A stretch of 64,000 nucleotides of DNA from Desulfurellales bacterium (GTDB lineage Bacteria; Campylobacterota_A; Desulfurellia; Desulfurellales; Hippeaceae). The notes below the pieces were generated by a model. The model saw only the letters and a program-made list of their open reading frames with translations, searched no databases and had not been told where the DNA came from. The stretch is taken from assembly GCA_027035575.1 (NCBI GenBank), contig JALVUQ010000086.1:1-64000 (forward strand). Direction: 5' to 3'. Numbering within the stretch: position 1 is the first letter of the stretch; every line of letters starts with the position of its first letter. Shown in pieces: positions 2,430 through 23,962 of the stretch. The translations under genes were made by a program, and so were the position numbers.

Positions 2430-2457
2430 TTGACATGATATTCATAATGGATATAAT
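2430..2457 (+). promoter_or_regulatory. Consensus sigma-70-type promoter for tRNA-Leu/metK operon
   Basis: A perfect TTGACA (-35) at 2430-2435 and a perfect TATAAT (-10) at 2452-2457 are separated by 16 bases. The expected start of transcription is about 2464, roughly 12 bases before the mature 5' end of tRNA-Leu. It is the best-matching promoter seen in the window and the only strong one upstream of the SAM-cycle run. Confidence 0.8.
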
Positions 2458-2476
2458 CCGTTTTGTTGAGAGAGTT

Positions 2477-2564
2477 GCCGAAGTGGCGGAATTGGTAGAC
2501 GCGCTAGATTCAGGGTCTAGTGGGCATTATGCTCGTAGGGGTTCGACTCCCCTCTTCGGCACCA
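2477..2564 (+). tRNA. tRNA-Leu (anticodon CAG)
   Basis: An 88-base class II tRNA. The acceptor stem GCCGAAG (2477-2483) pairs with CTTCGGC (2554-2560), followed by A and an encoded CCA (2562-2564). The anticodon stem CTAGA/TCTAG encloses the loop TTCAGGG with anticodon CAG at 2511-2513. The D-loop has GG, the long variable arm follows the anticodon stem, and the T-arm contains GGTTCGACTCC. The long variable arm and anticodon both indicate leucine. The metK start codon is only 23 bases after the CCA end. Confidence 0.97.
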
Positions 2565-2587
2565 TTTCTTTTTTTGGGGAGGAAGTT

Positions 2588-5006
<2,419 letters not shown>

Positions 5007-5022
5007 AATACAGGAGGAATTG

Positions 5023-6051
5023 ATGAAAGAAAAGGTATTGGATGCATTAAAGCAGGTTTTTTACCCCGGCAAAACACACAGCGTTGTTAATGAAGGAATA
5101 ATTGAAGATGTAGAAATTCAAGGGTCAAAGGTAGTTGTAAAAATAAAAACAGCCGAAAAAAATCAAGGCGTTATAGAGATGCTCAAACGCAGCATTCCTG
5201 CCGCACTAAAAAGGCTTGAAGGCATTGAAGATGTTGAACTTGAGATAGAAAAAGTTGTTGAAGAAAAAGAAAAGGTTTCAAATATACGCTACATCATTGC
5301 AACAACAAGCGGTAAAGGCGGTGTCGGAAAATCAACCGTCAGTGTTAACATTGCCGTCAGCCTGGCTAAGTTGGGTTTTAAAACCGGTCTGTTGGATGCC
5401 GATATATACGGACCTAACATCCCTACAATGATGGGCATAGACGGTGTCCCGGTTCAAATAGACAGGGAGCACAAGGATAAAATACTGCCCACGGAGAAAT
5501 ACGGCGTTAAAATTATATCCATAGGCAATATGATACCGAAAGATGCAGCAGTTATCTGGAGAGGCTCTTTAATACACTCGGCAATAAAACAGTTTATGGA
5601 GGATGTTTCTTGGGGCGATTTGGATTTTCTTGTTGTTGATTTGCCGCCGGGAACAGGCGACGCCCAGCTAACGCTTGCTCAGGAGTCAAAAGTGTCAGGA
5701 GGTATTATTGTCATAACACCTCAGCATGTTGCTATGAGTGACGCTATGAAGGCTAACGACTTTTTTAACAAACTAAAGATTCCGGTTTTGGGTGTTATAG
5801 AAAATATGAGCTACTTCATCTGTCCGCATTGCGGAAAAAGAAGCGATATATTCTCACACGGAGGCGGCAAAAAGTTTGCTGCTGAAAGCTCCTTGCCGTT
5901 TTTGGGAGAGATTCCCATAGATTTGGAAATTAGAGAAGGTGGCGATACAGGCAAACCTATAGTAACATCAAATCCGGATTCTCCGGTTTCCAAAGCGTTT
6001 GAAGATGCCGCCAGAAATATTGTCGAAAAGGTGAAGCTCTTAAACAGTTAA
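5023..6051 (+). CDS. Mrp/ApbC-type iron-sulfur carrier ATPase
   Basis: A 342-residue P-loop ATPase of the Mrp/NBP35 family, which carries and transfers [4Fe-4S] clusters. An N-terminal MIP18/DUF59-like domain (about 1-75) precedes the deviant Walker A motif TSGKGGVGKST near residue 100, and the cluster-binding C-x2-C (FICPHCGK) lies near residue 265. I chose ATG 5023 over the TTG three bases earlier because GGAGG lies five bases upstream of the ATG, and only two bases from the TTG. It follows ahcY by 16 bases. Confidence 0.92.
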   Translation: MKEKVLDALKQVFYPGKTHSVVNEGIIEDVEIQGSKVVVKIKTAEKNQGVIEMLKRSIPAALKRLEGIEDVELEIEKVVEEKEKVSNIRYIIATTSGKGGVGKSTVSVNIAVSLAKLGFKTGLLDADIYGPNIPTMMGIDGVPVQIDREHKDKILPTEKYGVKIISIGNMIPKDAAVIWRGSLIHSAIKQFMEDVSWGDLDFLVVDLPPGTGDAQLTLAQESKVSGGIIVITPQHVAMSDAMKANDFFNKLKIPVLGVIENMSYFICPHCGKRSDIFSHGGGKKFAAESSLPFLGEIPIDLEIREGGDTGKPIVTSNPDSPVSKAFEDAARNIVEKVKLLNS

Positions 6052-6062
6052 GGAGAGAAAAA

Positions 6063-6731
6063 ATGAGTATTTTTGACCTTTTTAGAAAATCCCCCTTTGC
6101 GGCACTAAACGAGATGATGAAAGAGGTTATGGAATGTACGAACAGGGTTCCGGCTCTGTATGAGGCTTTTTTAAACTCAGACAGAGAAAATATAGAAAAA
6201 ATAGCCAAAGAGATATCCGACCACGAGTATAAAACGGACTTAATCAAAAACGAGATAAGACAGAGTTTGCCGAACAGTATTTTTATGCCTGTTGCAAGAG
6301 GAGATTTGCTCCAAATTATCTCGGCTATGGACGCAATTGCCGATAAAACGGAAGACCTTGGCGTTTTAATGACATTCAAAACCATTACGGTACCGAATGA
6401 GATAAAGGCAGAAATAATGGATTTCGCAAAAAGTGTCATAGGCGTTGTTAAACTGTCAAAAGATGTAATTGAGGAGCTCGAAACTCTAAAGGCAGCCAGT
6501 TTTGCCGGTCCTGAAGCCGAATCGGTTTCTAATCTTCTCGACAAGATAAACGAATCGGAGCACGAAACCGATAAGTACCAATACAGCCTGACAAAAAAGG
6601 TTCTAAACTCCGAACAGGAGATGGATTGCGGCTCTTTGGTCTTGTGGTTGAAAATTATTGAAATAACCGGCGGCATAGCAAACTCAGCAGAAAAGATGGC
6701 TAACAGAATAAGGCTTATTATTTCGCAATAG
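6063..6731 (+). CDS. PhoU-like DUF47 protein, Pit accessory
   Basis: A 222-residue all-helical protein of the DUF47 (TIGR00153) family, distant relatives of PhoU. Repeated acidic metal-binding-type helices are seen (ISDHEYKTDLIKNEI, DAIADKTEDLG, ESEHETDKYQ). Such genes commonly sit directly before a Pit phosphate permease and are thought to modulate it; here the pit start is two bases after the stop. It is preceded by an aGGAGagaaaaa ribosome site 11 bases after the Mrp gene. Confidence 0.88.
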   Translation: MSIFDLFRKSPFAALNEMMKEVMECTNRVPALYEAFLNSDRENIEKIAKEISDHEYKTDLIKNEIRQSLPNSIFMPVARGDLLQIISAMDAIADKTEDLGVLMTFKTITVPNEIKAEIMDFAKSVIGVVKLSKDVIEELETLKAASFAGPEAESVSNLLDKINESEHETDKYQYSLTKKVLNSEQEMDCGSLVLWLKIIEITGGIANSAEKMANRIRLIISQ

Positions 6732-6733
6732 CT

Positions 6734-7981
6734 ATGGAACTATATATAATACTCATACTGTCGGCTGTAATAGGCTTCTATATGGCTTGGAATATAGGAG
6801 CCAACGACGTTGCCAACGCTATGGGAACAAGCGTTGGCGCAAGAAGCGTTACATTCAAACAGGCAATTATTATTGCTGCAATTTTTGAATTCTTGGGCGC
6901 AATGCTTGTCGGAAACCACGTAAGCCTGACCATAGCAAAAGGAATCGTAAATCCGCAGGACTATACAAACAACGCAATGATTTTCGCATACGGGATGCTT
7001 GCCACTCTGCTTTCTGCTGCTTTATGGGTAAACCTTGCAACAAAGCTCGGTATGCCGGTTTCAACAACTCACTCTATAGTCGGAGGAGTGATAGGCTTTG
7101 GCATTGTAAGTAAGGGCTTTGCTTCAATCAAATGGATTAAACTGGTATCCATTGTGGCAAGCTGGATAGTATCTCCAATCAGCGGCGGAATCATATCTTT
7201 TGCCATTTTTATATTTATCTCAAAATCAATACTTAGCAAAGAAAAGCCGGTTGTTGCAGCTAAAAAGTATGCTCCGTTTCTGGCTTTTCTTGTTGCCATA
7301 ATACTCGTGTTTTCTATGTTATATAAGGGATTGAAAAATCTGCACCTAAACTTGTCTTTTTCTCACGCTTTGATTATAGCCTCACTTGTAGGTATTGTTT
7401 TTGCCTTCTTTATATTTCTTGTGGTATCGAGAATTCCCGTTGACACCACCCTGCCCTACAAAAGAAGATTTCCTCAGGTTGAACGTGTTTTTGCCATACT
7501 TCAGCTTATAACGGCATCATATATGGCATTTTCACACGGGGCAAACGACGTGGCAAATGCCGTTGGTCCTTTAATGGGCGCGGTCTATGCAGGAGCTTTG
7601 GTTCATTCGCAAAATATAGCTATGCCCATATGGGTACTGAGCGTTGGTGCTGTCGGAATAGTTGTGGGGCTTTCGATGTACGGATATAAGGTTATACTTG
7701 TGGTTGGCAGAAAAATAACCGATATGACACCCTCAAGAGGCTTTGCAGCAGAATTCGGTGCAGCAACCACCGTTTTGGTCTGCTCCAAGATGGGATTACC
7801 CATTTCAACAACCCACACTCTCATAGGTTCGGTTATAGGAGTCGGGCTTGCAAGAGGAATTGGTGCCCTAAACGGTAAAGTGCTTAAAGATGTAGCCATA
7901 TCCTGGATTTTAACCATACCCATAGCCGCAATACTTTCTGCCGGGATTTTCTTATCGCTTCAAGGCATTTTCAGTTTATGA
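6734..7981 (+). CDS. pit: PiT-family inorganic phosphate transporter
   Basis: A 415-residue inner-membrane permease with about ten hydrophobic segments. The duplicated PiT signature is visible in both halves: NIGANDVANAMGTSVGA near residue 20 and SHGANDVANAVGPLMGA near residue 265. The paired STTHSIVGGVIG and STTHTLIGSVIG motifs are also present. PiT proteins take up phosphate or metal-phosphate complexes with H+ or Na+. The stop overlaps the start of the Ppx/GppA gene, tying phosphate uptake to polyphosphate or ppGpp-type phosphatase activity in one operon. Confidence 0.95.
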   Translation: MELYIILILSAVIGFYMAWNIGANDVANAMGTSVGARSVTFKQAIIIAAIFEFLGAMLVGNHVSLTIAKGIVNPQDYTNNAMIFAYGMLATLLSAALWVNLATKLGMPVSTTHSIVGGVIGFGIVSKGFASIKWIKLVSIVASWIVSPISGGIISFAIFIFISKSILSKEKPVVAAKKYAPFLAFLVAIILVFSMLYKGLKNLHLNLSFSHALIIASLVGIVFAFFIFLVVSRIPVDTTLPYKRRFPQVERVFAILQLITASYMAFSHGANDVANAVGPLMGAVYAGALVHSQNIAMPIWVLSVGAVGIVVGLSMYGYKVILVVGRKITDMTPSRGFAAEFGAATTVLVCSKMGLPISTTHTLIGSVIGVGLARGIGALNGKVLKDVAISWILTIPIAAILSAGIFLSLQGIFSL

Positions 7982-8901
7982 AATATGCAACCCTCGATAT
8001 GGGCACAAACACCGTCAGACTTTTAATTGCTCAAAAAAAGGAGGGCTGTCTATTTGACTTTATCTGTCAAAAAAGCAAAATTGCCAGAATCGGAGAGGGT
8101 TTCGGAAGCAATAAACTCATAAAAAAAGAGGCTTTAAAAAGAACCCTGAATATTCTTAGAGAGTATAAAAGCGTTATTAGAAAATACGATGTAAAAGAGG
8201 TTTTTGCAGCAGCTACAAGCGCTATAAGAGAAGCACAAAATCGTAAATGGTTTATTGAAAATATAAAACAAGCGGGTTTTGATATTGAGGTAATAACTCC
8301 GCAGCAAGAAGCCGAATTAACCCACATCGGAATAGTTTATATGCTAAAAGACATAATAAAAAACGGCAATTGGCTTGCATTCGATTTGGGTGGAGGCAGC
8401 ACCGAATTTATGTTTTCTTCAAAAAACAGACTGATAGATTCTTTCAGCATACCGCTTGGGGGCGTAAAACTGCTTGAGATGTTTATAAAAAATGACCCGC
8501 CCCAAGAAGATGAGCTTAATACGGCTGCAAAATATTTTAAAAAACAGCTTGAAGAATACATTCAAAGACCGCATAAACCGGATTTTATTGTAGGTAATGC
8601 GGGTACGGTCACATCACTCGCGGCAATCGATATGAATTTAACAACATACTCATTTGAAAAAACCGAAGGGTACAAACTAAAAAAAGAAAACATAGATAAG
8701 ATTCTTACAAAACTTACATCTATGAGCTCTCAAAAACGCCTTGAGACATACAATATACTTGAAAAAGGCAGAGAGGATGTTATTGTTGTGGGCGCCAAAA
8801 TTGTAAAAACAATATTGAACTTTTTTGATAAGGATTATATTATTACAACAAACGGCAGTTTAAGAGAAGGATTGCTTATAAAGAAGGTGTGTTATGGATG
8901 A
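7978..8901 (+). CDS. Ppx/GppA family phosphatase
   Basis: A 307-residue cytoplasmic enzyme of the exopolyphosphatase/guanosine pentaphosphatase family (ASKHA fold). The first phosphate motif DMGTNTVRLL (residues 7-16) and the second, AFDLGGGSTEF (about 137-147), are clear, with GNAGTVTSLAA further on. At about 300 residues it lacks the C-terminal HD-like domain of the long E. coli Ppx, as is common for the short form. Sequence alone does not separate polyphosphate from pppGpp hydrolysis; the position directly after a phosphate transporter favours polyphosphate turnover. Confidence 0.9.
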   Translation: MKYATLDMGTNTVRLLIAQKKEGCLFDFICQKSKIARIGEGFGSNKLIKKEALKRTLNILREYKSVIRKYDVKEVFAAATSAIREAQNRKWFIENIKQAGFDIEVITPQQEAELTHIGIVYMLKDIIKNGNWLAFDLGGGSTEFMFSSKNRLIDSFSIPLGGVKLLEMFIKNDPPQEDELNTAAKYFKKQLEEYIQRPHKPDFIVGNAGTVTSLAAIDMNLTTYSFEKTEGYKLKKENIDKILTKLTSMSSQKRLETYNILEKGREDVIVVGAKIVKTILNFFDKDYIITTNGSLREGLLIKKVCYG

Positions 8902-9223
8902 AAACAGAAAAGAACTATTTCTTATGCTAAAAAACAATGCAGAAGATATAAAAAATACCCTCAGCTCAAAAGAACTTCAACTTGCAAAACTCGATACGCT
9001 TTTAAGGGAAAGAAACAGGGTATTTGTAAAATTGAGGGATATACTGACCGAAACGTCGATAGATGACGAAGAAGAGGAACTCATTCAAGGAATGATAGAG
9101 GATAACGGCTTTATTTTAGAGAGGATGAATGAAATCAAGCAGGATATGGAGAGCAAATTTAACAAAAAGGAGAGCGACGCAAACAAGATTTCAAAATACT
9201 CCCCTGATAATCTGAAGGGGTAA
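8894..9223 (+). CDS. Coiled-coil protein of unknown function
   Basis: A 109-residue charged protein with no recognised domain. It has no signal or membrane segment and is predicted by eye to be mostly helical, with heptad-like runs (about residues 15-50 and 60-95) and an acidic centre (SIDDEEEEL). The start overlaps the end of the Ppx/GppA gene by eight bases. Its size and composition resemble small chaperones of the FlgN/FliT kind, but no flagellar gene is adjacent, so I leave it unnamed. Confidence 0.65.
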   Translation: MDENRKELFLMLKNNAEDIKNTLSSKELQLAKLDTLLRERNRVFVKLRDILTETSIDDEEEELIQGMIEDNGFILERMNEIKQDMESKFNKKESDANKISKYSPDNLKG

Positions 9224-9241
9224 AAAAGGAGGTTTTAAGCT

Positions 9242-9799
9242 ATGATTATCAAGAAAGACGACTGTATCCTCGTTGTTATCGATATGCAGGAAAAGTTAGC
9301 TAAAGTTATGCAAAATCTTGACAATACGACAAAAAACATAAGGCTGCTTATTGAGGCTGCAAACGAATTTAACATACCCATACTTTATACGGAACAATAT
9401 CCGAAAGGGCTCGGTGATACCATAGAGCCTTTAAAATCCCTCCTTGAAAAATACAAGGCTCAACGATTTGATAAGATGTCATTTTCAGCACTTTTGATAG
9501 ACGATATAAAAGATGCACTGGATAAGTCCGGGAAAAACACCGTTGTTTTAACGGGAATAGAGTCTCATATCTGCGTTCTCTCAACAGCGATAGATCTGCA
9601 GGATGCGGGCTTCGATGTTGTAATAGCCAATGATGCGGTTACATCAAGAGAAGAAGGTTTTTATAAAACTGCTATGGATTTTTATAACGGACAAAACATA
9701 CCTGTTATTCCAGCAGAATCAATTGTTTTTTACTGGATTGAGTTTGCAGGAACGGAATCGTTTAAAAAGTTGCAGAAAATAATTCTCGGGAGAGATTAG
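9242..9799 (+). CDS. Isochorismatase-family cysteine hydrolase
   Basis: A 185-residue hydrolase of the isochorismatase/nicotinamidase superfamily. The catalytic triad can be assigned by pattern: Asp in VVIDMQEKL near residue 13, a central Lys in the AQRFDKMSFSA region, and Cys in GIESHICVLST near residue 107. The family includes nicotinamidases, YcaC-like hydrolases and others; nothing here fixes the substrate. A good ribosome site (AGGAGG) precedes the ATG. Confidence 0.88.
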   Translation: MIIKKDDCILVVIDMQEKLAKVMQNLDNTTKNIRLLIEAANEFNIPILYTEQYPKGLGDTIEPLKSLLEKYKAQRFDKMSFSALLIDDIKDALDKSGKNTVVLTGIESHICVLSTAIDLQDAGFDVVIANDAVTSREEGFYKTAMDFYNGQNIPVIPAESIVFYWIEFAGTESFKKLQKIILGRD

Positions 9800-9810
9800 A
9801 CCTATAAATT

Positions 9811-11328
9811 GTGATAGATAATTTTTTCAAAAGCCGCTTTAATATATTTTTTTATTCGTTCATACTCTTTTCCATAGGGAGCTTCTATGTAGGTTTTTTC
9901 CCGCCGGATGAGCCTAAATATGTCGATGCCGCTTTAAGAATGATTAAAACAGGCAATTATATTGTTCCTTTTTTCAACTGTCACATCCGCTTTGATAAAC
10001 CTATACTATACTATCTTGAGATTGTAGTTTTCTTTAAAATGTTTTTTGTGGAGCATCTGTTAAAAATAGGGCACGACCCTCTGGGTATAATAGAGTATGC
10101 GGCAAGACTGCCCTCAATTATAACCGGAAGCTTTATAATGCTGTTTACCTACCTTACATCTCTGGAGTTATTCAAAGATAAAGAGGGAGCAAAAAATTCT
10201 GTGGTTGTTCTGCTTTCTTTCTTTTTCTATTTTTATCTTACGCGTTCGGTTTATCCCGATGCGAGCCTAATATTGTTTGAACTTATGGCAATCTACTTTT
10301 TCATAAAAAATTCTTATATATTGGCTTGGACGTTTATAGCTTTGGCTTTCCTGACAAAAGGACCTATCGGTATAGTGACTCCCGGTTTTACATATTTTAT
10401 ATATCTGTGGATTGTTAAAAAAGAATCAGGCATAAAAGAATTTTTTTCGCTTCAAAATCTATTTGGAATAGCGGTATTTTTAATACTGTCAGCACCTTGG
10501 TATATTATTATGTATCACCAATACGGAATGGAATTTATTAACAAATTTCTTATTTACCACAACATAGAACGCTTCACGGGTCAGGCGCATCAACATCCTC
10601 ACTCGTTTTTTTACTACATTCCCATAGTCATCGCATCTTTATATTTTTGGTTTGCCTATCTAAAACAGTTGTACGAAAAAATAGATATAAAAGATAAACA
10701 AAACCTGTTTCTCATTCTCTGGTTTGCCTGGATTGTACTGTTTTTTTCAATATCAAGAAACAAACTTGTTCACTACATAGCTCCGGCATACATTCCCCTT
10801 GCAGTACTTATGGGACGATATGTTGATGAACTTAAAAATTTTAAAACTGCTCAAACCATAATATCGCTACTTGAAATTCTTTTGGCTTTTGGCGCCGCTT
10901 TTTATGCCTATAAACAGCATTTAAACTTGTTAATGCCGACTCTCCTTTTCGGATTTTTCTTTTTATCTATGCTGAATTTCCTCAAAAACCCAAAAAGAGT
11001 TGTGTTTTATAAGGTTGTGTTTCTAAGCGTCGTAGCGGCAGTAGTGCTTATACAGTTCGAGTCATACAGACCTGAGAAAAAAATTTGGAAATTGCTTATA
11101 AATAAACCCGCAAAACTGTATGAGTACAAAATTAACAATCAATCGCTTGTCGCATATACAGGCAGGTGTTTGAAAGAATACAGAAACCCGGCTATATTCA
11201 TAAAAGCTAAAAAGCCGTTTTATATCTACACAAAAAAAAGACACATCAAAGAGATAAATGTCAGATATAAAATTCTTTTTTATGCCAAAGATAAGGGCAC
11301 AAACACAGCACTGTTATTTGTACAATGA
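9811..11328 (+). CDS. GT39/ArnT-like membrane glycosyltransferase
   Basis: A 505-residue integral membrane protein starting at GTG. The N-terminal half matches the PMT/ArnT group: a first membrane helix, then a periplasmic loop with the DEPKY acidic motif near residue 33, TGNYIVPFFN and the FDKPILYY motif, followed by around ten further helices. These enzymes move a sugar from a polyprenyl-phosphate donor to protein or lipid A on the outer face of the inner membrane. There is no lipid A or undecaprenyl-sugar gene nearby, so the acceptor is open. The stop overlaps the JetD-like gene (ATGA). Confidence 0.85.
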   Translation: MIDNFFKSRFNIFFYSFILFSIGSFYVGFFPPDEPKYVDAALRMIKTGNYIVPFFNCHIRFDKPILYYLEIVVFFKMFFVEHLLKIGHDPLGIIEYAARLPSIITGSFIMLFTYLTSLELFKDKEGAKNSVVVLLSFFFYFYLTRSVYPDASLILFELMAIYFFIKNSYILAWTFIALAFLTKGPIGIVTPGFTYFIYLWIVKKESGIKEFFSLQNLFGIAVFLILSAPWYIIMYHQYGMEFINKFLIYHNIERFTGQAHQHPHSFFYYIPIVIASLYFWFAYLKQLYEKIDIKDKQNLFLILWFAWIVLFFSISRNKLVHYIAPAYIPLAVLMGRYVDELKNFKTAQTIISLLEILLAFGAAFYAYKQHLNLLMPTLLFGFFFLSMLNFLKNPKRVVFYKVVFLSVVAAVVLIQFESYRPEKKIWKLLINKPAKLYEYKINNQSLVAYTGRCLKEYRNPAIFIKAKKPFYIYTKKRHIKEINVRYKILFYAKDKGTNTALLFVQ

Positions 11329-12083
11329 GTGATGATATATTAAGCAAACTGCAAATAAGCAAAAAAGATACGTATCTATACGACAAAGCAGTCAAAGTTT
11401 TGGAGTTTATGAAAAACAGATATAAAGGAGAGGATTTGAGATTCGTTTCGGCTTATCTTTTTAACGACTCCAAAATAATAGATAAAAACGCAAAATTACG
11501 TGCTCTTTTTAACAGGTTCGCAACGGTGGAAAGACCCAATATTATTTATATAAGAACGGATACCGATTTAAAAATAAACAGCATAAGTATAAAAGATTTA
11601 ACCCAAAAACTTCACTTATGCGCATTCTTCGGTGGGAATATAAACAGTCTCGTTCAAGAAGATTGCAGTGTGGTCATATCTGAAAACCTGTCGTTTTTTA
11701 TGAGTGCTGTTCCAAATAACGCGATATTTTTATACAGCAAGGGGTTTCATTTAATAAATTCGCTGACAGCATTTATAAAAAAACTCAAATACAACAACCT
11801 CATTCATTTCGGTGATGTTGATACCGAAGGTCTTGCCATATTCGAGGCGTTTAAAAAAAATCTGCCTGAGCTAACCTTTTATCCGGACATAGAAACGGTT
11901 AGGTTTATTATTGATAAATTCAAAGATAATCTACCCACCAATAAACAAAAAGCAGACGGATGCGAGTATAAACACTCCAAAGAGTATTATGATTTGGTTA
12001 AAAATGGCATAAGCATTGAGCAGGAGTTTGTGCATTCTCTTTTCTACAAAACAATATTAGAGAAACCGAAATGGATGAAGTAA
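11325..12083 (+). CDS. JetD-like Toprim (DUF2220) protein, standalone
   Basis: A 252-residue protein whose C-terminal two thirds match the DUF2220 Toprim domain of JetD, the nuclease subunit of Wadjet plasmid-defence systems. The putative metal site is complete: a glutamate in VISEN (E120), then HFGDVDTEGLAIF with D164 and D166, then FYPDIETV, and finally ISIEQEFV, matching the EQE close to the end of JetD proteins. Length is well below the usual 380-400; the N-terminal DUF3322-type arm is short or divergent. None of JetA, JetB or JetC is within reach; neighbours are a glycosyltransferase and a molybdopterin enzyme. It overlaps both neighbours, so it is expressed with housekeeping-like genes. 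Function in this setting is unknown. Confidence 0.75.
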   Translation: MSDDILSKLQISKKDTYLYDKAVKVLEFMKNRYKGEDLRFVSAYLFNDSKIIDKNAKLRALFNRFATVERPNIIYIRTDTDLKINSISIKDLTQKLHLCAFFGGNINSLVQEDCSVVISENLSFFMSAVPNNAIFLYSKGFHLINSLTAFIKKLKYNNLIHFGDVDTEGLAIFEAFKKNLPELTFYPDIETVRFIIDKFKDNLPTNKQKADGCEYKHSKEYYDLVKNGISIEQEFVHSLFYKTILEKPKWMK

Positions 12084-13729
12084 AACTTTTCTGCTCCAAA
12101 GATTGCCCTGATACCTGCTCATTTTTAGGCAGACTGGATAAAAACGACAAATTATTAATAAAACCGTTAAAAGATGGATTTCTTGACAGAGGTTTTGTGT
12201 GCAAAAAGCTCAAAGGTTTTTATAGAAGAGAAGTTGAGAACAACAAAGCACAATCTTTTTACGTAAAAGACGGAAACAAAATCGTAGGTAGAGATGTTTT
12301 GGAAAAACTGGCGGAATTGTTAATTAAAAACAAAAACAAAAAAATTCTCCTTTATAAAGGTTCCGGCAGCCTCGGATACTATATGGGTTTTTGGGACAAG
12401 TTGTTCTCAAACTTTGAAAATTGCTATTTTGTAAAAGGAAATCCTTGCGATGAAACAGGAATTATAGCGCATAGAGAAGATTTCGGTGTCTGCGCAAATC
12501 CGCCCGTAGAAAACCTAAAAAAGGCGGAAACAATTATACTTTTCGGGAAAAACGCCTACGTTGTATCGCCCCATCTCTTTGTATATCTTCAAAAGCTAAA
12601 AAAACTCGGCAAAAAAATAATATACATAGACCCTATAAAATCAGAAACGTCAATAATAGCCGATAGATATATCAGAATAAATCCCGCAGCAGACGGGCTT
12701 TTAGCTTATGCCATACTGGCAGAAATGGGATATTTTCCAAAAAAATATGAGCTGTTTGACAAAATCGGCATATCAAAAAACGATTTCGAATATATTACGA
12801 AAAGCATCAAACCTAAAAAAACAGGTATTATTGAGGGTTTTGGTATGCAGCGATATTCAAACGGGAAAAACATAATACAATGGATAAACAGGCTCGCATA
12901 TTTTACAGATAACATTTATAACCTTTTTTATTCCCGCTCATCGAAAGAGGGCTTGGAAAAAATTGAGGTAAACAAAAAGCATATAATAAATATTGCCGAG
13001 GTTACAGATTTTTTAAAAAGAAACTTTTTTAATATTATTATTGTCGTTGCATCTAATCCTACCGTAACTATGCCGCAAAATTCAATATGGAAGAGGGCTT
13101 TAGAGAAAGCAAAAACCGTTGTTATTGATACGAACGAAACGAATACGTCGAAATTTGCCGATTTTTTCATCAGAGTCGGCGGAATGTTTGCTCAAGAAGA
13201 TATTCAGGGCAGCTACTTTTTCAATAAAACAAACAAAAGAGAAAGGTTAATCAACTCGGATAACTCGGATATTGATATAATTAAGCAGCTTTCTAAATTG
13301 ATGAATATTGATATAAAAATACCGAAAATTAACGAAATAAATACAAATATACCCGTTAAAGTCAGAATTTTGAGTAAAAAACAGATAGACTTGCTTGAGC
13401 CGAAAGTTGAGAAAGACAGAATTAGACTCATAACACTATCAAACGAGAACTATCTAAACTCACAAACTGAAACTCTGCAATACGACAGCATATTTATCTC
13501 ACGGGAACTCTCCTTAAACCTTAATATCAAAAACGGCGAATTTGTAACCATAAAAAGCAGAATATCGGAATGCAGGGTGCAGTGTTTTGTTAGTGAAAAA
13601 GTCAATGGCTTCAACGCTTTTGCCTATAAAAACAGGTCTGAGTGTTTTAATAAATTAACAGAAAGCAAACCTACCGATGCGACATATGCCCTCGCCTACT
13701 ACGATTTGTTTGTCGAAATTATAAAATGA
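12071..13729 (+). CDS. Small molybdopterin oxidoreductase
   Basis: A 552-residue member of the DMSO-reductase superfamily. The N-terminal [4Fe-4S] site is intact: C8, C12 and C16 (CSKDCPDTC) and C44 (GFVCKK). Cys126 in GNPCDETG lies where the molybdenum ligand is expected. The C-terminal part has the usual domain IV features, such as ELSLNLNIKNGEFVTIKS. It is shorter than most catalytic subunits (650-800), has no Tat signal and no neighbouring electron-transfer or membrane subunit, so a soluble cytoplasmic enzyme is likely. The substrate cannot be inferred. It overlaps the JetD-like gene by 13 bases. Confidence 0.82.
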   Translation: MDEVKLFCSKDCPDTCSFLGRLDKNDKLLIKPLKDGFLDRGFVCKKLKGFYRREVENNKAQSFYVKDGNKIVGRDVLEKLAELLIKNKNKKILLYKGSGSLGYYMGFWDKLFSNFENCYFVKGNPCDETGIIAHREDFGVCANPPVENLKKAETIILFGKNAYVVSPHLFVYLQKLKKLGKKIIYIDPIKSETSIIADRYIRINPAADGLLAYAILAEMGYFPKKYELFDKIGISKNDFEYITKSIKPKKTGIIEGFGMQRYSNGKNIIQWINRLAYFTDNIYNLFYSRSSKEGLEKIEVNKKHIINIAEVTDFLKRNFFNIIIVVASNPTVTMPQNSIWKRALEKAKTVVIDTNETNTSKFADFFIRVGGMFAQEDIQGSYFFNKTNKRERLINSDNSDIDIIKQLSKLMNIDIKIPKINEINTNIPVKVRILSKKQIDLLEPKVEKDRIRLITLSNENYLNSQTETLQYDSIFISRELSLNLNIKNGEFVTIKSRISECRVQCFVSEKVNGFNAFAYKNRSECFNKLTESKPTDATYALAYYDLFVEIIK

Positions 13730-13747: not shown

Positions 13748-13766
13748 CGGGGGTAAGAGACCCCCG
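13748..13766. terminator. Bidirectional hairpin terminator between convergent genes
   Basis: CGGGGGT (13748-13754) pairs perfectly with ACCCCCG (13760-13766) around the loop AAGAG. It lies between the convergent molybdopterin gene and atpE. T-rich sequence follows on the plus side (TGTTTT) and ATTTTAT follows on the minus side, so it could end transcription from both directions. Confidence 0.75.
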
Positions 13767-16882: not shown

Positions 16883-17506
16883 TTAATAGCCATACACAAC
16901 GGATATATGGGCTTTATCTTTAGGGTTTTTTGTAGATTCTGCAACTACCTCTATACGAAAGAGAGACGGTATGGTTGGAGGGTGGATAATATTAGTTCCT
17001 CTTTTACTCGTTGTGACTCCACCGGCTATTAATTTCTTAGAAGCTGAAGAACCTGACGTGTTACCCTTTGCTGCATTTACAATTTCTACATATACTAAGT
17101 AAGTTCCCACAGAATATTTTAAGTCATAATAATTTTTAATATAATTTGTATTTATATTTTCAGCTAAAGTGGTTGATGTAGCTCTACACTGATTATCTGA
17201 GAGCTCACTATCTGTCCAATTAGATGTTTGAGTATTGAGCTTATAGTGCAAACAAGTAGTTTTTTTATCCAGTAAGTTTGACGGAAAAGAAACGGCATTG
17301 TTATTCTTAATATACCCCAAAATTTCTTTCGTTTCCCTGAAGGCACCTACAGCAGACTCTACCGCACTCCTATACTGCCTAAAACTTCCGGATATTTTTG
17401 TGCTTTGCATTGAGATATACAGAGCCATACTTACAAGAGCTAAAATTATAAACGCAAAAACAATTGCAACTATGAGAGCAATTCCTTTGTCATTCTTAAC
17501 AGTCAT
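16883..17506 (-). CDS. PilX-like minor pilin/pilus assembly protein
   Basis: A 207-residue protein starting with a short basic leader, then KGIALIVAIVFAFIILALVSMAL, the form of the PilX N-terminal helix, in which the usual pilin Glu5 pattern is weak. The rest is a soluble periplasmic domain with several Asn/Thr-rich strands. It is the last gene of the run fimT-pilV-pilW-pilX downstream of pilY1 in map order, three bases after the pilW-like stop. By analogy it primes type IV pilus assembly at the inner membrane. A stretch of about 160 bases without a gene separates it from hemL. Confidence 0.75.
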   Translation of the reverse strand: MTVKNDKGIALIVAIVFAFIILALVSMALYISMQSTKISGSFRQYRSAVESAVGAFRETKEILGYIKNNNAVSFPSNLLDKKTTCLHYKLNTQTSNWTDSELSDNQCRATSTTLAENINTNYIKNYYDLKYSVGTYLVYVEIVNAAKGNTSGSSASKKLIAGGVTTSKRGTNIIHPPTIPSLFRIEVVAESTKNPKDKAHISVVYGY

Positions 17507-17509
17507 ACA

Positions 17510-18604
17510 CTACTCCAAATTTTTTGGTGTTGCTAAAATCTTTATAACTTCCCAACGATAATTTTTATAATCGGTAATTTTTGTCAAGTCAAAATTTCTT
17601 CCCATTCCGGTTGAGCTATCACCCACAAATATACTATTGTGCGGATACATATAATTTTTATCTTTTCTTCCGTTTTGCATTAAAATAAACACTCTTACCT
17701 GTTTTAACTCATCTCTAATTTTCTCGGCGTTTAAACCCGTTATATTTTGCGTCCAATAGTCTATACTACCGTTAGTATCGTTGTCCAAGCCAAATTCAAC
17801 CTGAAAATCTGCAACACAGTGCAAAATTGGGTAAGACTGCACTACACCGTTGGATTGTTTCATAACTGCTCTTGCCAATGTATAGGTACCGTTGGCACAC
17901 TCGCTTTTTGTATCACCTCCGGAATATAAACGATAATCAATTCTATTAAACGGAGACCTAAGGTTACTATTATCAACACCATATATAAGATACACAGATG
18001 AAGGTAAAAACGGTAGTCCGTAATCTGTCGGAATAGTATCAGATGGATCTGCATCTTTAGAAATAACATAAAATAAACTGCCTCCTATTAAAGTCCTGCT
18101 TCCTGCATCCATAACAATTACTCTATCTGTATTTTGAAGGTTGTTGTAGTTAGCAACGTTATTTGAAGGCCAAATATTTAGGGAGCGGTTACTATTTATG
18201 TAGCTCCAATGGCTCGAAGCTTTATTTAAACCGAAAGCCGTACTTTTTAGAACTAAATAGCTAAAACCTTTTTTGTTATCCTTTTTTCCGACTATGGCTC
18301 TTGGCGGATTGGAAGAGTCATTAAAAATATCTGGAGTTAAAGAATAAAGACTTAAGGTTGAAGCAGTCGCTTCAGAGTATAGTAATCCCCCGGTACCCCA
18401 TGGCAAACCCAATCCTGCCGTTTCTATATCTTTTCTTATAACTTCAAGAGCCGGAATGTTTTCTATACTCGTTTTGGATAAGCTAACCTCTCTTACGGTT
18501 GTCTTTAATTCTTGTATAAACAATTTATATGGTATTCCTATAATCACGGCGAATATAATTACTGCAACAAGAATCTCTATTAAACTAAACCCTTTTTTAT
18601 TCAT
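17510..18604 (-). CDS. PilW-like minor pilin
   Basis: A 364-residue prepilin-like protein. The class III signal is classical: MNKKG^FSLIEILVAVIIFAV with the peptidase site after Gly5 and Glu at mature position 5. The large C-terminal globular domain and its length match PilW of the minor-pilin operon. The start overlaps the end of the PilV-like gene by eight bases. It is expected to lie with FimT, PilV and PilX at the pilus tip or base together with PilY1. Confidence 0.82.
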   Translation of the reverse strand: MNKKGFSLIEILVAVIIFAVIIGIPYKLFIQELKTTVREVSLSKTSIENIPALEVIRKDIETAGLGLPWGTGGLLYSEATASTLSLYSLTPDIFNDSSNPPRAIVGKKDNKKGFSYLVLKSTAFGLNKASSHWSYINSNRSLNIWPSNNVANYNNLQNTDRVIVMDAGSRTLIGGSLFYVISKDADPSDTIPTDYGLPFLPSSVYLIYGVDNSNLRSPFNRIDYRLYSGGDTKSECANGTYTLARAVMKQSNGVVQSYPILHCVADFQVEFGLDNDTNGSIDYWTQNITGLNAEKIRDELKQVRVFILMQNGRKDKNYMYPHNSIFVGDSSTGMGRNFDLTKITDYKNYRWEVIKILATPKNLE

Positions 18605-18989
18605 TTTTGTTCACCACCGTATCTGTTGTGTAGTTATAATTTTTATTTCTATAGTTCCAACTTATTTTAGATGCTATATTTTTATATCCTGATGAAAATA
18701 CGGTTATATTATCTATTATGGTAAACCTCTCGTAAAAGTTGCGTATAGCTTTAATCTCAACCTGTGTCAAAACTCCTGTAGGTACATTATTGTAAGGTCT
18801 ATTTGATAAATCGTTCACGTGATCACTCAAAATCTCAACAGCAGTGTTTCTGATTTCGTTTTTCAAGTTGTTATCCATCACAACCGCTGACAGTTCCATA
18901 AGCCCTGTTACGGACACACCTATAATCACCATAGCAACAAGAAGTTCAATTAAGGAAAATCCTCTATTTGACTTCGCATTTTCCAGCAT
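18597..18989 (-). CDS. PilV-like minor pilin
   Basis: A 130-residue prepilin with leader MLENAKSNRG^FSLIELLVAMVIIG, cut before Phe and with Glu5 present. The size and the TGLMEL/AVVMDNNLKNE segment fit PilV. The ATG at 18989 has GGGAGAG four bases upstream even though it lies inside the end of the FimT-like gene (26-base overlap), so the overlap is probably real. Confidence 0.8.
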   Translation of the reverse strand: MLENAKSNRGFSLIELLVAMVIIGVSVTGLMELSAVVMDNNLKNEIRNTAVEILSDHVNDLSNRPYNNVPTGVLTQVEIKAIRNFYERFTIIDNITVFSSGYKNIASKISWNYRNKNYNYTTDTVVNKNE

Positions 18990-19524
18990 TATACTCTCCC
19001 ATAGCTATACGACTTATATATACCTTGATACAATTATGCCTCGCAGGATAATTTATGTATAAAGTAAAAGAACCAAAACTCCAATTGCTACTTCTGGCAA
19101 CACCTTCATCTCCAAACATAATTACACTACCGGGTGCTATGCCGTTTAGCGGATATTTTAAGGTAACAGTTGTAGCATCTTTTTCCTCGGATACTCCGTC
19201 AAACTTGAGATTATAATTTTTGTCATCTAAAGTAAAAATAGTGTATTGAGTGGAAGAATCAAACCTTATTCCGTGCGGTATCCCCGTATTCATTGATTTG
19301 AATCGTTGTAGAGACAAATCACTGTATATTTTTGTAATTTCTTTTTGAGTATTATATTTTTTCATATATCTCGATAAATAAGGAACTGCAATAGCCAGCA
19401 TAGTAAGCAATATCAAAACTACGACTATCATCTCTAATAATGAAAAACCGCTTTGTCTATTGTGGCACACAGCTTTATCAAATCTATAAAATAGTTGTTT
19501 AAAACCGTTTTTTTTGCGCTTCAT
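18964..19524 (-). CDS. FimT/GspH-like prepilin
   Basis: A 186-residue prepilin. The leader is long and basic (MKRKKNGFKQLFYRFDKAVCHNRQSG) before the processing site G^FSLLEMIVVVLILLTML; Glu5 is present. The soluble part matches the FimT/GspH layout (PYLSRYMKKYNTQKEI, then beta-rich sequence). FimT proteins in some species bind DNA during uptake; a cluster of basic residues could serve this here, but that is inference. It starts four bases after the pilY1 stop. Confidence 0.8.
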   Translation of the reverse strand: MKRKKNGFKQLFYRFDKAVCHNRQSGFSLLEMIVVVLILLTMLAIAVPYLSRYMKKYNTQKEITKIYSDLSLQRFKSMNTGIPHGIRFDSSTQYTIFTLDDKNYNLKFDGVSEEKDATTVTLKYPLNGIAPGSVIMFGDEGVARSSNWSFGSFTLYINYPARHNCIKVYISRIAMGEYNAGKCEVK

Positions 19525-19528
19525 TGCA

Positions 19529-22500
19529 TTATTTCTCTTTCCATTGTATAACCTTATTAATAGGGGGAGGAGGCAAAATAAATGTCATACCGGCAGAGGG
19601 AGGAGGAGCTCCAACTATAGGGTGAAGCAACTTTCTTCCCTCATGAGAACCGTGCCCTTGCCCAAACTCTTCTGTTAACTTAATCTTTTCTATAGCACCG
19701 GTAGATAATTGCATATATAATGTTCCCTCAATATTTGTCGGAGTGCCTCCGTTACTGTAATTTACCATCCAAGCAGATGAACTTCCTCCAAAACCGCACA
19801 TATCACTCGTTGGCATAAATGTTGTATAAAATACCCATCCGTTTGTAGAGGCAACCGGGTCAGTAATCATCCTTTCCGAATTATAATTACCTTCGGAAGA
19901 ATTAAGATTAATATACCATCCATTGTTAATGTTATCAATCGAAGCGTTTGCATCATTGGTAACATTAGTTAAATCATTTAAATTCAATATTGATGTACAG
20001 TTTTTAATATAAACCCCATTTCCAAAACAAGGGTCCTTAACACCATATATTCTTCTTTGAGCAGTCGGGTCATCTTCCTTTGTAAAATATCTTCCTTCAC
20101 CGAAATAAACCCATAGTGTATTATCCTGTTTGTCTTGTAAAGTTCTAACTCCAGACGTCACAGGACCTATGCCGTCTATCAACTTTGAAACTTTCCAATT
20201 ATCAGGATTTACATCATCATTCGTAACTAAGCGTAAAATACCGCCATGCCAACCACTATTTTCGTATGTATATCCGAAATACACGGAATCATCTGAATAA
20301 TTTGTTCCTAAATCAACACTAGTTTTAAACATTCTTCCCGCAAAGGCATTTATATTACCCAGAACAGAATCAGAACTTCCGCTTAACCGTATTTTTCTTT
20401 TCAAATCACCGGTTTTCAAATCAAGAATATATAAGTATAGTGGTTGATGAACCGTTCCATTATAACTATCAGGACCTGATGCAAATACAACATACCAATA
20501 ACCGTTTTTCTTATTGTTATCAACATAAGTACCGTTATCAAGCCTTTTTTTTGCAGGTATGTGCACAATAGCCGGTCCTGTTGTAGTAAATCCTAAATCA
20601 TTATCACTAAACTCCCAAAGAACTTTTGGATTTTCCGGATCTGTTACATCCAATGCAAAATAGGAAGAACGTCCTATTCCTGTCGGGACTTTTCCAGTAT
20701 CATTTGGAGGATGGACAGCTCCGTCAGCATCACTACCACAGGCTCCACCCAAATTCAATCCGCCTATAAGTATCGTGCGCCAACTATTTACCGTTTTGGT
20801 TTGAGAATAATAATCATTTACGTTATCTCCCGGATATTCTATACTTGCATCTAACATATATGGGGTCAAATCAACATAATAAATATGACAATATTCTTTA
20901 TCCATATAGTATTTCAAATACGGCAAAAGATTTTTGGGTATAAATCCCCAAGCTTCTGACCCTAATTCCACATCAGCCGGCAGTTTTTCCAACTTAGCTA
21001 TATTACTGTTGGCTGCATTCAACATAGTAACTTTGCCGAGTCTGAAGGCATGAAGCATTCCATCATTTGCTCCAACAAACACCATTCCTCTGTTTTTATA
21101 ATCATCACTTTCTACAAATTCTTTATATGTTTTGTCGTTATATCCATACGGAGCATTTTTATAGTAATCATCAATGGGACTACCAGACAAAATTCTAGGT
21201 GTTGAATAAACTATATCTCCAAGCTTCCATACATGGGTATTGCTACCTATGGTTACAGTCCTGTTTCTATAACCTTCTATATCTTCTCCTCTTATATAAT
21301 TTATAACATCATCCGCTTGCGTCAAATTGTCAACGTCAAGATAATCCATTAACTTGGTAGCGTTTGCATCTATGAAGTTGCCCTCTGTCAAGTTATCGGT
21401 TAAATTATCAATATCCGTAAAAATTTTCCTGTTATCCGGGGGTGTTTCCCATAAAGACATACCGGCATCCCATAAGTATTTCACTTCCGAGACATTTTTA
21501 TCAGGTAAAGATGTATCAGGTATTCCGTCTCCGTTGCTATCTTTCATAACGTGAACCATTGTAGTATTTGTAGAATTATCAAAGAAAAATGAAATAGCAT
21601 AATCATTATAAAGATTTAAAATTTTATTTCCATCAGTATCTTCCCTTATATTTTGGACAAAAGGCCCTAGATAAAACCACATATTTTTTAAATTACCCAC
21701 CCAATTCATATTAGTACTATTATCAAAACTTTTCTTCGGGTAAAACAAGGCCTGCAAGACTACAGAACCGCTACTTTCATTTGTAGCAAGAATTGAAGAA
21801 GGCGTTCCGGAAGATGCCAGTTTTAATATTTCAGCAATGGTTCCTTGTATAAAATTTTCTATTAAATACCCGTCTCGGGCTCCGAGATAGTTGTCTGGAA
21901 TTCCATCTCCATTTTTATCCCATTCTGCTTGAAGATCCGGTTTTCCATCCCCATTTAAATCTTTAAAACCTCCGTATTTAGCGGCTGCTTCTAAAAGTTT
22001 CCGCGCCCTTGCACTCCTACCAAATGTATAAATAGTATATAGAGTAAGATTTTGTGTACCAGGAAGATTACTTCTTAAGTCTGAAACATGGCTATAGTAT
22101 GCATCACCCTCCAAATAATAAGTTCCATCACTGGATAAAGTGGAACACCATTTGGAGTCGTACCCTTCTTCATCTGCTATTTTATCCATCCAGGTTTTCA
22201 CATTAAAATTTGGGTCTGAGACAGTCCCAGTATATCCATAAAAACACGTCCCCGGCACATTCATATCCTTTGTAGATTCTCCATCTGTTATTAAAATAAC
22301 AAAATTTTTCTGACACCTATATTGAATAGGGTCGTGATTAGAATAATCTACTCCTGAATTGTAGGCTGACTGTGTAGCTTCAAAATATCTTATTGCTTCA
22401 TAGTAAGTTTCGGCAAGTGGCGTCCAATTATGAGGATAAAGCGGTGGATATCCTTTAGGCTTATTTGGATATTTATTCTTATCATATACATCCTGATTCA

Positions 22501-23344
22501 AATATAAAGATGCAAGATTTGTATTGTTGTCAGATATGTAACTAACAACTCTTCCTCCGTCTTTACGGTCGTCATCATCTTCATATTCACTGCCATGGTT
22601 GAAAACCATTAAACCGACTCTGACCTTTTTTGAAATCTTCTGCAAGATACCCTTAGGTTTACCGTCTATCTTAACCCTTATTGCGTATTTATCACCGTCA
22701 ACCTCAAACCAGAATCTATCATTCCTTGTTTTATTTGAACCGTCATAATCTGTGCCGACATAAAAAATTTCATCACTGTAATCATATGGAAAGTAGTTAT
22801 CAGACTCACTTTCTTCATATTTTTTCTTAAATTTGTAACCATAAGGATATAAAGAATCTGCATTCTTTTCTATTGTGTTAAACCCCTGCAGAAATTCATC
22901 ACTGCCACTTTTCTTGTAATTTCCACCAACCAGTATTTTTAATAGTATGTCATACCTTCTCATTGTTAACCAGTTTAAAAAATTGCCGTTCCAATCACCA
23001 TTTGAGTCTTTATAGAAATAATCATCACTGTCATTATAAAAGTATTGTGAATCAGGATCAAAGATACCGTAATACTTATGGCTTGAGTCGAACGATGTAT
23101 CAACTTCATATAGATGCAAACCTTGAGGCCAATAAGCCGCATATTTCATACTGCCTGAATTATCAACTATAAACAAAACATTGGGAGTGACCGAAGAAAT
23201 CAGAAAAGGTGGTGCAGCACAATAAGTGGACATGCTTTGAGAATAAGCTTTTAGTGGGAAAATACTTAAAGCTAAAAATAAAAACAGACATCCGACATAT
23301 AATGCTCTAAACATTTTCTTAATTATCATAATACACTTCCTCAT
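19529..23344 (-). CDS. pilY1: PilY1-like pilus adhesin/tip protein
   Basis: A 1271-residue secreted protein. A signal sequence (to about residue 36) is followed by a von Willebrand A domain with an intact MIDAS start, D61-x-S63-x-S65 in VDNSGSM, and ITDGES near 352. The C-terminal half (from about 640) matches the PilY1 beta-propeller, with GANDGMLHAFRLG and WRTILIGGLNLGG. Ca2+-loop sequences are seen at 462-470 (DLNGDGKPD), 476-484 (DKNGDGIPD) and 602-610 (DSNGDGIPD). It is expected at the pilus tip. The start overlaps the preceding gene (ATGA); an internal ATG at 23329 is an alternative. Confidence 0.93.
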   Translation of the reverse strand: MRKCIMIIKKMFRALYVGCLFLFLALSIFPLKAYSQSMSTYCAAPPFLISSVTPNVLFIVDNSGSMKYAAYWPQGLHLYEVDTSFDSSHKYYGIFDPDSQYFYNDSDDYFYKDSNGDWNGNFLNWLTMRRYDILLKILVGGNYKKSGSDEFLQGFNTIEKNADSLYPYGYKFKKKYEESESDNYFPYDYSDEIFYVGTDYDGSNKTRNDRFWFEVDGDKYAIRVKIDGKPKGILQKISKKVRVGLMVFNHGSEYEDDDDRKDGGRVVSYISDNNTNLASLYLNQDVYDKNKYPNKPKGYPPLYPHNWTPLAETYYEAIRYFEATQSAYNSGVDYSNHDPIQYRCQKNFVILITDGESTKDMNVPGTCFYGYTGTVSDPNFNVKTWMDKIADEEGYDSKWCSTLSSDGTYYLEGDAYYSHVSDLRSNLPGTQNLTLYTIYTFGRSARARKLLEAAAKYGGFKDLNGDGKPDLQAEWDKNGDGIPDNYLGARDGYLIENFIQGTIAEILKLASSGTPSSILATNESSGSVVLQALFYPKKSFDNSTNMNWVGNLKNMWFYLGPFVQNIREDTDGNKILNLYNDYAISFFFDNSTNTTMVHVMKDSNGDGIPDTSLPDKNVSEVKYLWDAGMSLWETPPDNRKIFTDIDNLTDNLTEGNFIDANATKLMDYLDVDNLTQADDVINYIRGEDIEGYRNRTVTIGSNTHVWKLGDIVYSTPRILSGSPIDDYYKNAPYGYNDKTYKEFVESDDYKNRGMVFVGANDGMLHAFRLGKVTMLNAANSNIAKLEKLPADVELGSEAWGFIPKNLLPYLKYYMDKEYCHIYYVDLTPYMLDASIEYPGDNVNDYYSQTKTVNSWRTILIGGLNLGGACGSDADGAVHPPNDTGKVPTGIGRSSYFALDVTDPENPKVLWEFSDNDLGFTTTGPAIVHIPAKKRLDNGTYVDNNKKNGYWYVVFASGPDSYNGTVHQPLYLYILDLKTGDLKRKIRLSGSSDSVLGNINAFAGRMFKTSVDLGTNYSDDSVYFGYTYENSGWHGGILRLVTNDDVNPDNWKVSKLIDGIGPVTSGVRTLQDKQDNTLWVYFGEGRYFTKEDDPTAQRRIYGVKDPCFGNGVYIKNCTSILNLNDLTNVTNDANASIDNINNGWYINLNSSEGNYNSERMITDPVASTNGWVFYTTFMPTSDMCGFGGSSSAWMVNYSNGGTPTNIEGTLYMQLSTGAIEKIKLTEEFGQGHGSHEGRKLLHPIVGAPPPSAGMTFILPPPPINKVIQWKEK

Positions 23345-23775
23345 TCTGGAATTCTAACAATTACAATTCTTTTAACAAGACCAAATTTATTTAACACAAT
23401 AATCACAGAATCATCTATACGAATCTTTTCCTCATTTCTTTTCTTGAGGCTTTCAAGACTCACTTTTTTATAATTGGTCTCCCCTTCACAATTGCCATAA
23501 CAATCACTTTTTATGAAAATTTCATACTTGTTTGACAATCTGAGCGTAACATATTTGCCGTCTATTTTACCCTTAACGGTGCTGTCGGTAAATGTTATAC
23601 CATTGTCAAAAATCAATTTACGTGCAGATACTGCACCTTTTAAAGATTTAGATTGAGATACGTTACATAGAGCAAGCACATAAAAAATAAAAAGAATATC
23701 CAAACATATAAGTTTTACAAACCGCTTTGAAAACCAATTCCAACCAACAAAATTATTCCTTTTAATATCAACCAT
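23341..23775 (-). CDS. Periplasmic protein of unknown function heading pilus operon
   Basis: A 144-residue protein not recognised. One hydrophobic helix near the N-terminus (about 19-40, LICLDILFIFYVLALC) looks like a signal or anchor. The remainder is beta-rich with a GxxT-type stretch, KSDCYGNCEGE (two cysteines three residues apart, perhaps a disulfide) and a basic C-terminus. I chose ATG 23775 over the TTG two codons upstream because AGAGG lies six bases before it. Its stop overlaps pilY1, so a role beside PilY1, for example in export or prepilin handling, is likely but unproven. Confidence 0.65.
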   Translation of the reverse strand: MVDIKRNNFVGWNWFSKRFVKLICLDILFIFYVLALCNVSQSKSLKGAVSARKLIFDNGITFTDSTVKGKIDGKYVTLRLSNKYEIFIKSDCYGNCEGETNYKKVSLESLKKRNEEKIRIDDSVIIVLNKFGLVKRIVIVRIPE

Positions 23776-23962
23776 TTCCAACCTCTAAAAAACAATTTAT
23801 TTTTATTAAGATATTACTAATATAAACGTTATCGTTCTCTAAATCATCGCAAAACAAACAACATGAAAAAATCAAACTTCTCTCCTCCATCTTATTTTAT
23901 TTAAATTTATATTATTTTTGTGAAAAAATCGTGAAAATTCTTTTTTTAACAATAACCACTCA

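Follow-up and report, generated by a model that had tools for sequence, protein, structure and literature searches.

A short JetD-like Toprim protein outside a Wadjet system, encoded by a core gene of Hippea-like Desulfurellales

The locus and its operon

The window considered here is the whole 64,000-nucleotide stretch of DNA (positions 1 to 64,000 of contig JALVUQ010000086.1, assembly GCA_027035575.1) from a Desulfurellales bacterium. It contains an operon in which a JetD-like gene is the last but one, with the genes following one another in the order listed below.

2435..9799, + strand: upstream operon genes, namely metK, ahcY, Mrp-type ATPase, DUF47 (6063-6731), PiT transporter, Ppx/GppA, small protein and isochorismatase
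9811..11328, + strand: ArnT/PMT-like glycosyltransferase (PMT_2, 8.2e-10), with a 4 nt overlap (ATGA) with the JetD-like gene
11325..12083, + strand: JetD/MksG-type short Toprim protein, 252 aa, ATG start (JetD_C, PADLOC JetD1, 10 orthologs, AlphaFold model)
11325..11645, + strand: N-terminal region of this protein, residues 1-107, corresponding to the end of the CAP/winged-helix-like region of JetD, with LFxDSK and RPNIIYIRTD conserved
11646..12038, + strand: Toprim domain of this protein, residues 108-238, with E120, D164 and D166, and E232-Q233-E234
12071..13729, + strand: small molybdopterin-oxidoreductase-like protein (PF00384, 3.3e-12), with a 13-nt overlap with the JetD-like gene
13748..13766, + strand: terminator-like hairpin 3' of the last operon gene, with a 7-pair stem (6 GC pairs) and a T-rich tail

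An earlier note, made from the sequence of the window, had placed a gene for 252 residues at 11325-12083, and this was borne out, the gene lying on the + strand and starting with ATG. The overlaps it described with a glycosyltransferase gene and a molybdopterin enzyme gene are real as well and are similar in the orthologs: the JetD-like gene overlaps the preceding gene by a few nucleotides across the orthologs, and the overlap with the molybdopterin-like gene measures 16 nt in one of the 11 genomes and 13 nt in the other ten. The order of the operon is kept in every genome whose contig spans the region, the isochorismatase gene being unlisted by the simple ORF caller in two of them (G010 and G012), and both immediate neighbours, the glycosyltransferase and the molybdopterin-like protein, are the same in all 11 genomes; conservation of the neighbourhood, which had been suggested as a check, is thus established. 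The operon neighbours are metabolic, with no DNA-related gene among them.

Some further observations concern the surroundings of the gene. The molybdopterin-oxidoreductase-like protein (12071-13729) has 552 aa and an N-terminal cysteine cluster, and it adjoins the JetD-like gene family-wide. A gene conserved in the interval from ppx to isochorismatase (window 8894-9223) encodes a fast-evolving protein of 109 aa with no Pfam match. In two genomes the glycosyltransferase has a second copy that lacks a JetD-like neighbour (L150:7187-8731 in G009 and L151:8069-9631 in G015). Elsewhere in the window (16883-23781), pilin-like genes and a 1271-aa PilY1-like protein were recognized by eye as a type IV pilus minor-pilin cluster.

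Domain content, conserved residues and predicted fold

Residues 108-237 match the Pfam family JetD_C, for which the cut-off is 22 bits, with a score of 46.5 bits and an E value of 3.5e-12. JetD_C (PF09983) is the new name of DUF2220, the family to which the earlier note had assigned the protein, with an HMM search proposed as a check and a missing match named as the finding that would speak against it. The Pfam search found the domain in all 11 orthologs, the window protein included. Residues 14-237 also match the PADLOC model JetD1 (PDLC00533, E 1.1e-11), and given that the match covers profile positions 149-406 of 409, approximately 150 N-terminal residues of JetD are missing from the window protein. 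A profile search reported no DUF3322, the N-terminal JetD domain, in the 252-aa protein, which keeps the last part alone of that region, and an hhalign comparison of the orthologs (A1) with the JetD1 group aligned residues 38-243. An N-terminal arm hidden in the upstream frame can be ruled out, since the open frame from stop to stop is 262 codons in the window and 237-262 codons across the orthologs.

Alignment of the 11 orthologs revealed that K50, E120-N121, G163-D164, D166, G169 and E232-Q233-E234 are invariant, and the same positions (K of D-S/T-K, E-N, G-D-x-D-x2-G and E-Q-E) recur without exception in nine full-length JetDs of distant genomes, the sequence identity to true JetDs being about 25%. 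Three of the motifs from which the earlier note had recognized JetD, that is SEN with E120, HFGDVDTEG with D164/D166, and IEQE, are present as S119-E120-N121, G163-D164-x-D166-x2-G169 and I231-E232-Q233-E234. The fourth, PDIETV (187-192), is present but not diagnostic, as its D and E vary among the orthologs (PNYQTV, PSEAIA); the FYP directly before it is invariant. When the site is mapped, the counterparts of E120 are E248 in E. coli JetD, which is the mutated position of PDB 8q72, and E236 in MksG; D164 matches MksG D279, and the EQE glutamates match MksG E349/E351. In MksG, the E236A and D279A mutations drastically impaired activity (PMC10123090).

The AlphaFold model of the window protein has a mean pLDDT of 88.6 and a pTM of 0.77. 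The comparison with JetD and Spo11/Topo VI A that had been suggested was carried out on this predicted structure, and Foldseek retrieved MksG (E 1.3e-6), Topo VI-A (1d3y, 9.3e-5) and JetD (3.3e-4) as its best folds in the PDB and its sole matches at E<=0.001. For these matches the TM scores lie between 0.42 and 0.54 and the rmsd is large, which indicates that the domains match, with a packing that differs or is uncertain. A chance or partial resemblance to Toprim proteins is ruled out by the JetD_C match, the invariant residues and the fold matches.

Given that Topo VI-A is the second-best fold match of the predicted model, it could be asked whether the protein acts like topoisomerase VI-A/Spo11, cutting by way of a covalent tyrosine, and four tyrosines (Tyr33, Tyr75, Tyr137 and Tyr186) are indeed invariant in the orthologs. 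However, Tyr44, which lies near the expected winged-helix Tyr site of Topo VI-A as placed by eye, is Phe in the ortholog L014, and no ortholog has a Topo VI-A Pfam match. In addition, MksG Y258, a proposed possible nucleophile, corresponds to F141, which is invariant in the orthologs, and is thereby ruled out as a common nucleophile. A covalent mechanism is very improbable on these grounds, and the topoisomerase-like factor that the earlier note had envisaged is not favoured.

It can also be argued that a nuclease without a controller is potentially toxic and that the operon neighbours are metabolic, so that the protein might have kept the Toprim fold while turning into a DNA-binding or regulatory factor that no longer cuts. 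Against this, the metal-binding and EQE residues are all invariant across three genera and down to about 50% identity, which is unexpected after a loss of catalysis, and we regard a non-cutting protein as distinctly unlikely.

Distribution and descent within one family

A search of 61 genomes yielded 10 orthologs besides the window protein, all from one family of heat-loving sulfur bacteria, the Hippea-like Desulfurellales, and the JetD-like gene is carried by nine of the nine family genomes that are at least 90% complete. Five family genomes had no match. In two of them (G002 and G014) the contigs stop inside the upstream glycosyltransferase gene, and the other three (G001, G003 and G005) are 76-82% complete; a real gene loss is rejected for these reasons. 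Extending the profile search to 386 genomes added solely a weak match to a full-length JetD. A scan of 84,980 species genomes with two short alignment-based peptide patterns, the reach of which is limited to close relatives, found six loci, all in Desulfurellales/Hippea MAGs, and a pattern scan of the genome collection with the single window protein as query returned no match. Phages, plasmids and viral contigs yielded no relative, and an origin from any of these is rejected on that basis.

In the genome examined from the sister family there is no JetD_C protein, and the small protein and isochorismatase genes adjoin a distant glycosyltransferase. With parts of the neighbourhood thus kept, it looks as if the JetD-like gene was gained once, ancestrally, in the Hippea-like family. 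The pairwise distances of its protein are correlated with the distances among five core proteins encoded in the operon (r 0.85, Mantel p 0.0005); as these genes are linked, this demonstrates shared operon descent rather than an independent history. Pairs with synonymous sites that are neither saturated nor nearly so gave dN/dS values of 0.05-0.07, that is, purifying selection. The JetD-like gene is therefore a core gene passed on vertically within one family, the Hippea-like Desulfurellales, and the suggestion of a domesticated factor is upheld in that the gene behaves as a domesticated core gene, sitting in the same operon in all 11 genomes and being held by purifying selection.

The shortened N-terminus and the lack of partner genes might also be taken as signs of a degraded, functionless leftover of a Wadjet locus. 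This is already refuted by the selection signal, and the ORF and its overlaps are conserved in 11 genomes; we give such a leftover virtually no weight.

Search for a motor, interpretation and comparison with known systems

Motor genes were searched for in 25 genomes of the class/phylum, the full set available from the phylum, including two single-contig ones (G006 and G009). Neither JetA (DUF3375, PF11855) nor JetB (DUF4194, PF13835) was found in any of the 25, whereas both searches, as well as that for JetD_C, were positive in the Mks-bearing control C. glutamicum. For JetC, the JetC1 model nearest this JetD subgroup was used, and the 25 genomes gave only short P-loop/coiled-coil matches of at most 33 bits; true JetCs score above 900 bits with this model in the same subgroup, and one of another subgroup scores above 200 bits. 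The NCBI model for canonical Smc gave nothing above cut-off in the 25 genomes and passes in 10 of 14 control genomes, and the best SMC_N matches have lengths like those of RecF/RecN and ABC ATPases. That the search recognizes real loci is indicated by other genomes, where most full-length JetD_C proteins adjoin genes with the sizes of JetB, JetA and JetC (about 210, 490 and 1,100 codons).

The isolation from a Wadjet locus described in the earlier note was accordingly confirmed, with no JetABC neighbour in any of the 11 genomes, and the 252-aa protein is a member of the JetD_C domain family outside a Wadjet system. The possibility raised there that a complete JetABC set lies elsewhere, with this gene as a misplaced copy, is rejected, as no such set was found in this genome or in any of the 25; the proposed partnership with a genome SMC likewise lacks support, given the Smc result. 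The apparent absence of Smc from these 25 genomes, single-contig ones included, is an observation in its own right, as it would mean a chromosome organisation without Smc. A separate remark concerns two weak JetD_C matches of about 185 aa (G193 and G331), which by eye look closer to Toprim proteins of the RNase M5 type than to JetD.

Another genome harbors a Wadjet-like set (L131:3551-8887) of overlapping genes for a 416-aa protein, a 185-aa MksE-like protein, a 919-aa SMC-like ATPase and a short JetD_C protein of 273 aa, the first three of which PADLOC does not call Wadjet components. By analogy with this short JetD_C protein coupled to MksE-like and SMC-like partners, the Hippea-like protein could be the effector of a highly diverged complex, whether Wadjet-like or based on some other ATPase, with its genes elsewhere in the genome, for which RPNIIYIRTD, the N-terminal patch conserved among the orthologs, and other such patches could serve as the partner interface. 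Set against it are the 25 genomes without JetA, JetB, JetC1 or Smc and the operons of all 11 genomes, none of which has a motor-like neighbour. A very divergent SMC-like partner, or type II/III JetA/JetB/JetC, could have been overlooked in the Hippea-like genomes, and we consider an effector of this kind unlikely.

The explanation that we favour, with a probability of about 0.58, is an orphan, N-terminally shortened and domesticated homodimeric Toprim endonuclease of the JetD/MksG type, encoded by a core gene of the Hippea-like family and working without an SMC motor. Its nuclease activity, dimerisation, independence from a motor and role, be it genome upkeep or intracellular DNA restriction, are what we infer from the evidence above. 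The protein would form a homodimer via its Toprim domain, bind a divalent metal through E120/D164/D166 and cut or nick double-stranded DNA by hydrolysis, with the C-terminal EQE glutamates assisting, and cutting would proceed without the JetABC loop-extruding motor. Without that motor, activity must be restrained in some other way, which might be a low intrinsic rate, DNA shape (bending, crossings) or an as yet unseen partner.

Points against this explanation are the low identity to true JetDs (about 25%) and the lack of a DNA-related neighbour in the operon. In addition, JetD of E. coli and P. aeruginosa requires JetABC for efficient cutting, so that an orphan might have no activity or be under strong inhibition. 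Catalysis free of a motor is possible: in vitro, MksG can cleave DNA in the absence of MksBEF (PMC10123090), and JetD by itself cuts when its concentration is high (PMC10586767). Within the JetD/MksG group, Toprim nucleases may furthermore select bent DNA (PMC13040014), a form of control that would need no motor.

Concerning the cellular role, the core-gene status and the housekeeping operon would make maintenance likelier than mobile defence. It can tentatively be speculated that, in a whole bacterial family without Smc and Wadjet motors, a miniaturised JetD acts on its own as a DNA-shape-sensing core genome-maintenance nuclease that needs no loop extrusion, which we hold to be possible rather than probable. 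A compact core-gene cutter in a lineage without a detectable SMC motor offers a natural setting in which to find out if JetD-type nucleases are able to work, and to remain harmless, alone; it also suggests a route by which defence nucleases enter housekeeping roles, and the apparent lack of Smc in the class raises the question of how chromosomes are organised there.

Wadjet is a machine for defence against plasmids in which JetD is the subunit that cuts DNA, normally under the control of the motor subunits. The Wadjet/Mks systems described so far encode this cutter together with an SMC motor, and the literature searched, a limited library and hence weak evidence, contained no description of a JetD/MksG protein outside a complete system. 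Topoisomerase VI-A/Spo11 shares by fold (1d3y) the arrangement of Toprim and winged-helix-like parts, whereas no conserved catalytic Tyr and no family match were identified in the window family. Wadjet type I JetD (PDB 7til, 8q72; PDLC00533) has JetD_C, D-S-K, E-N, GDxDxxG and EQE in common with the window protein, and the closest sequence found, L132, belongs to the PDLC00533 type and is 27% identical to one ortholog across 209 aa; the window protein differs from type I JetD in having about 150 N-terminal residues fewer, in a genome in which JetA/JetB/JetC were not found, in its housekeeping operon and in its restriction to one family. The short JetD_C protein of L131 (genome G084) is of similar length, with 26% identity around the Toprim core, and differs in its coupling to MksE-like and SMC-like proteins. 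The best fold match, MksG of Corynebacterium glutamicum (PDB 8b7f), shares with the window protein the E...DxD...EQE acidic set and the Toprim dimer fold, and differs in having a full N-terminal domain, in being encoded and acting together with MksBEF, and in carrying Tyr258 where the Hippea-like family has Phe141.
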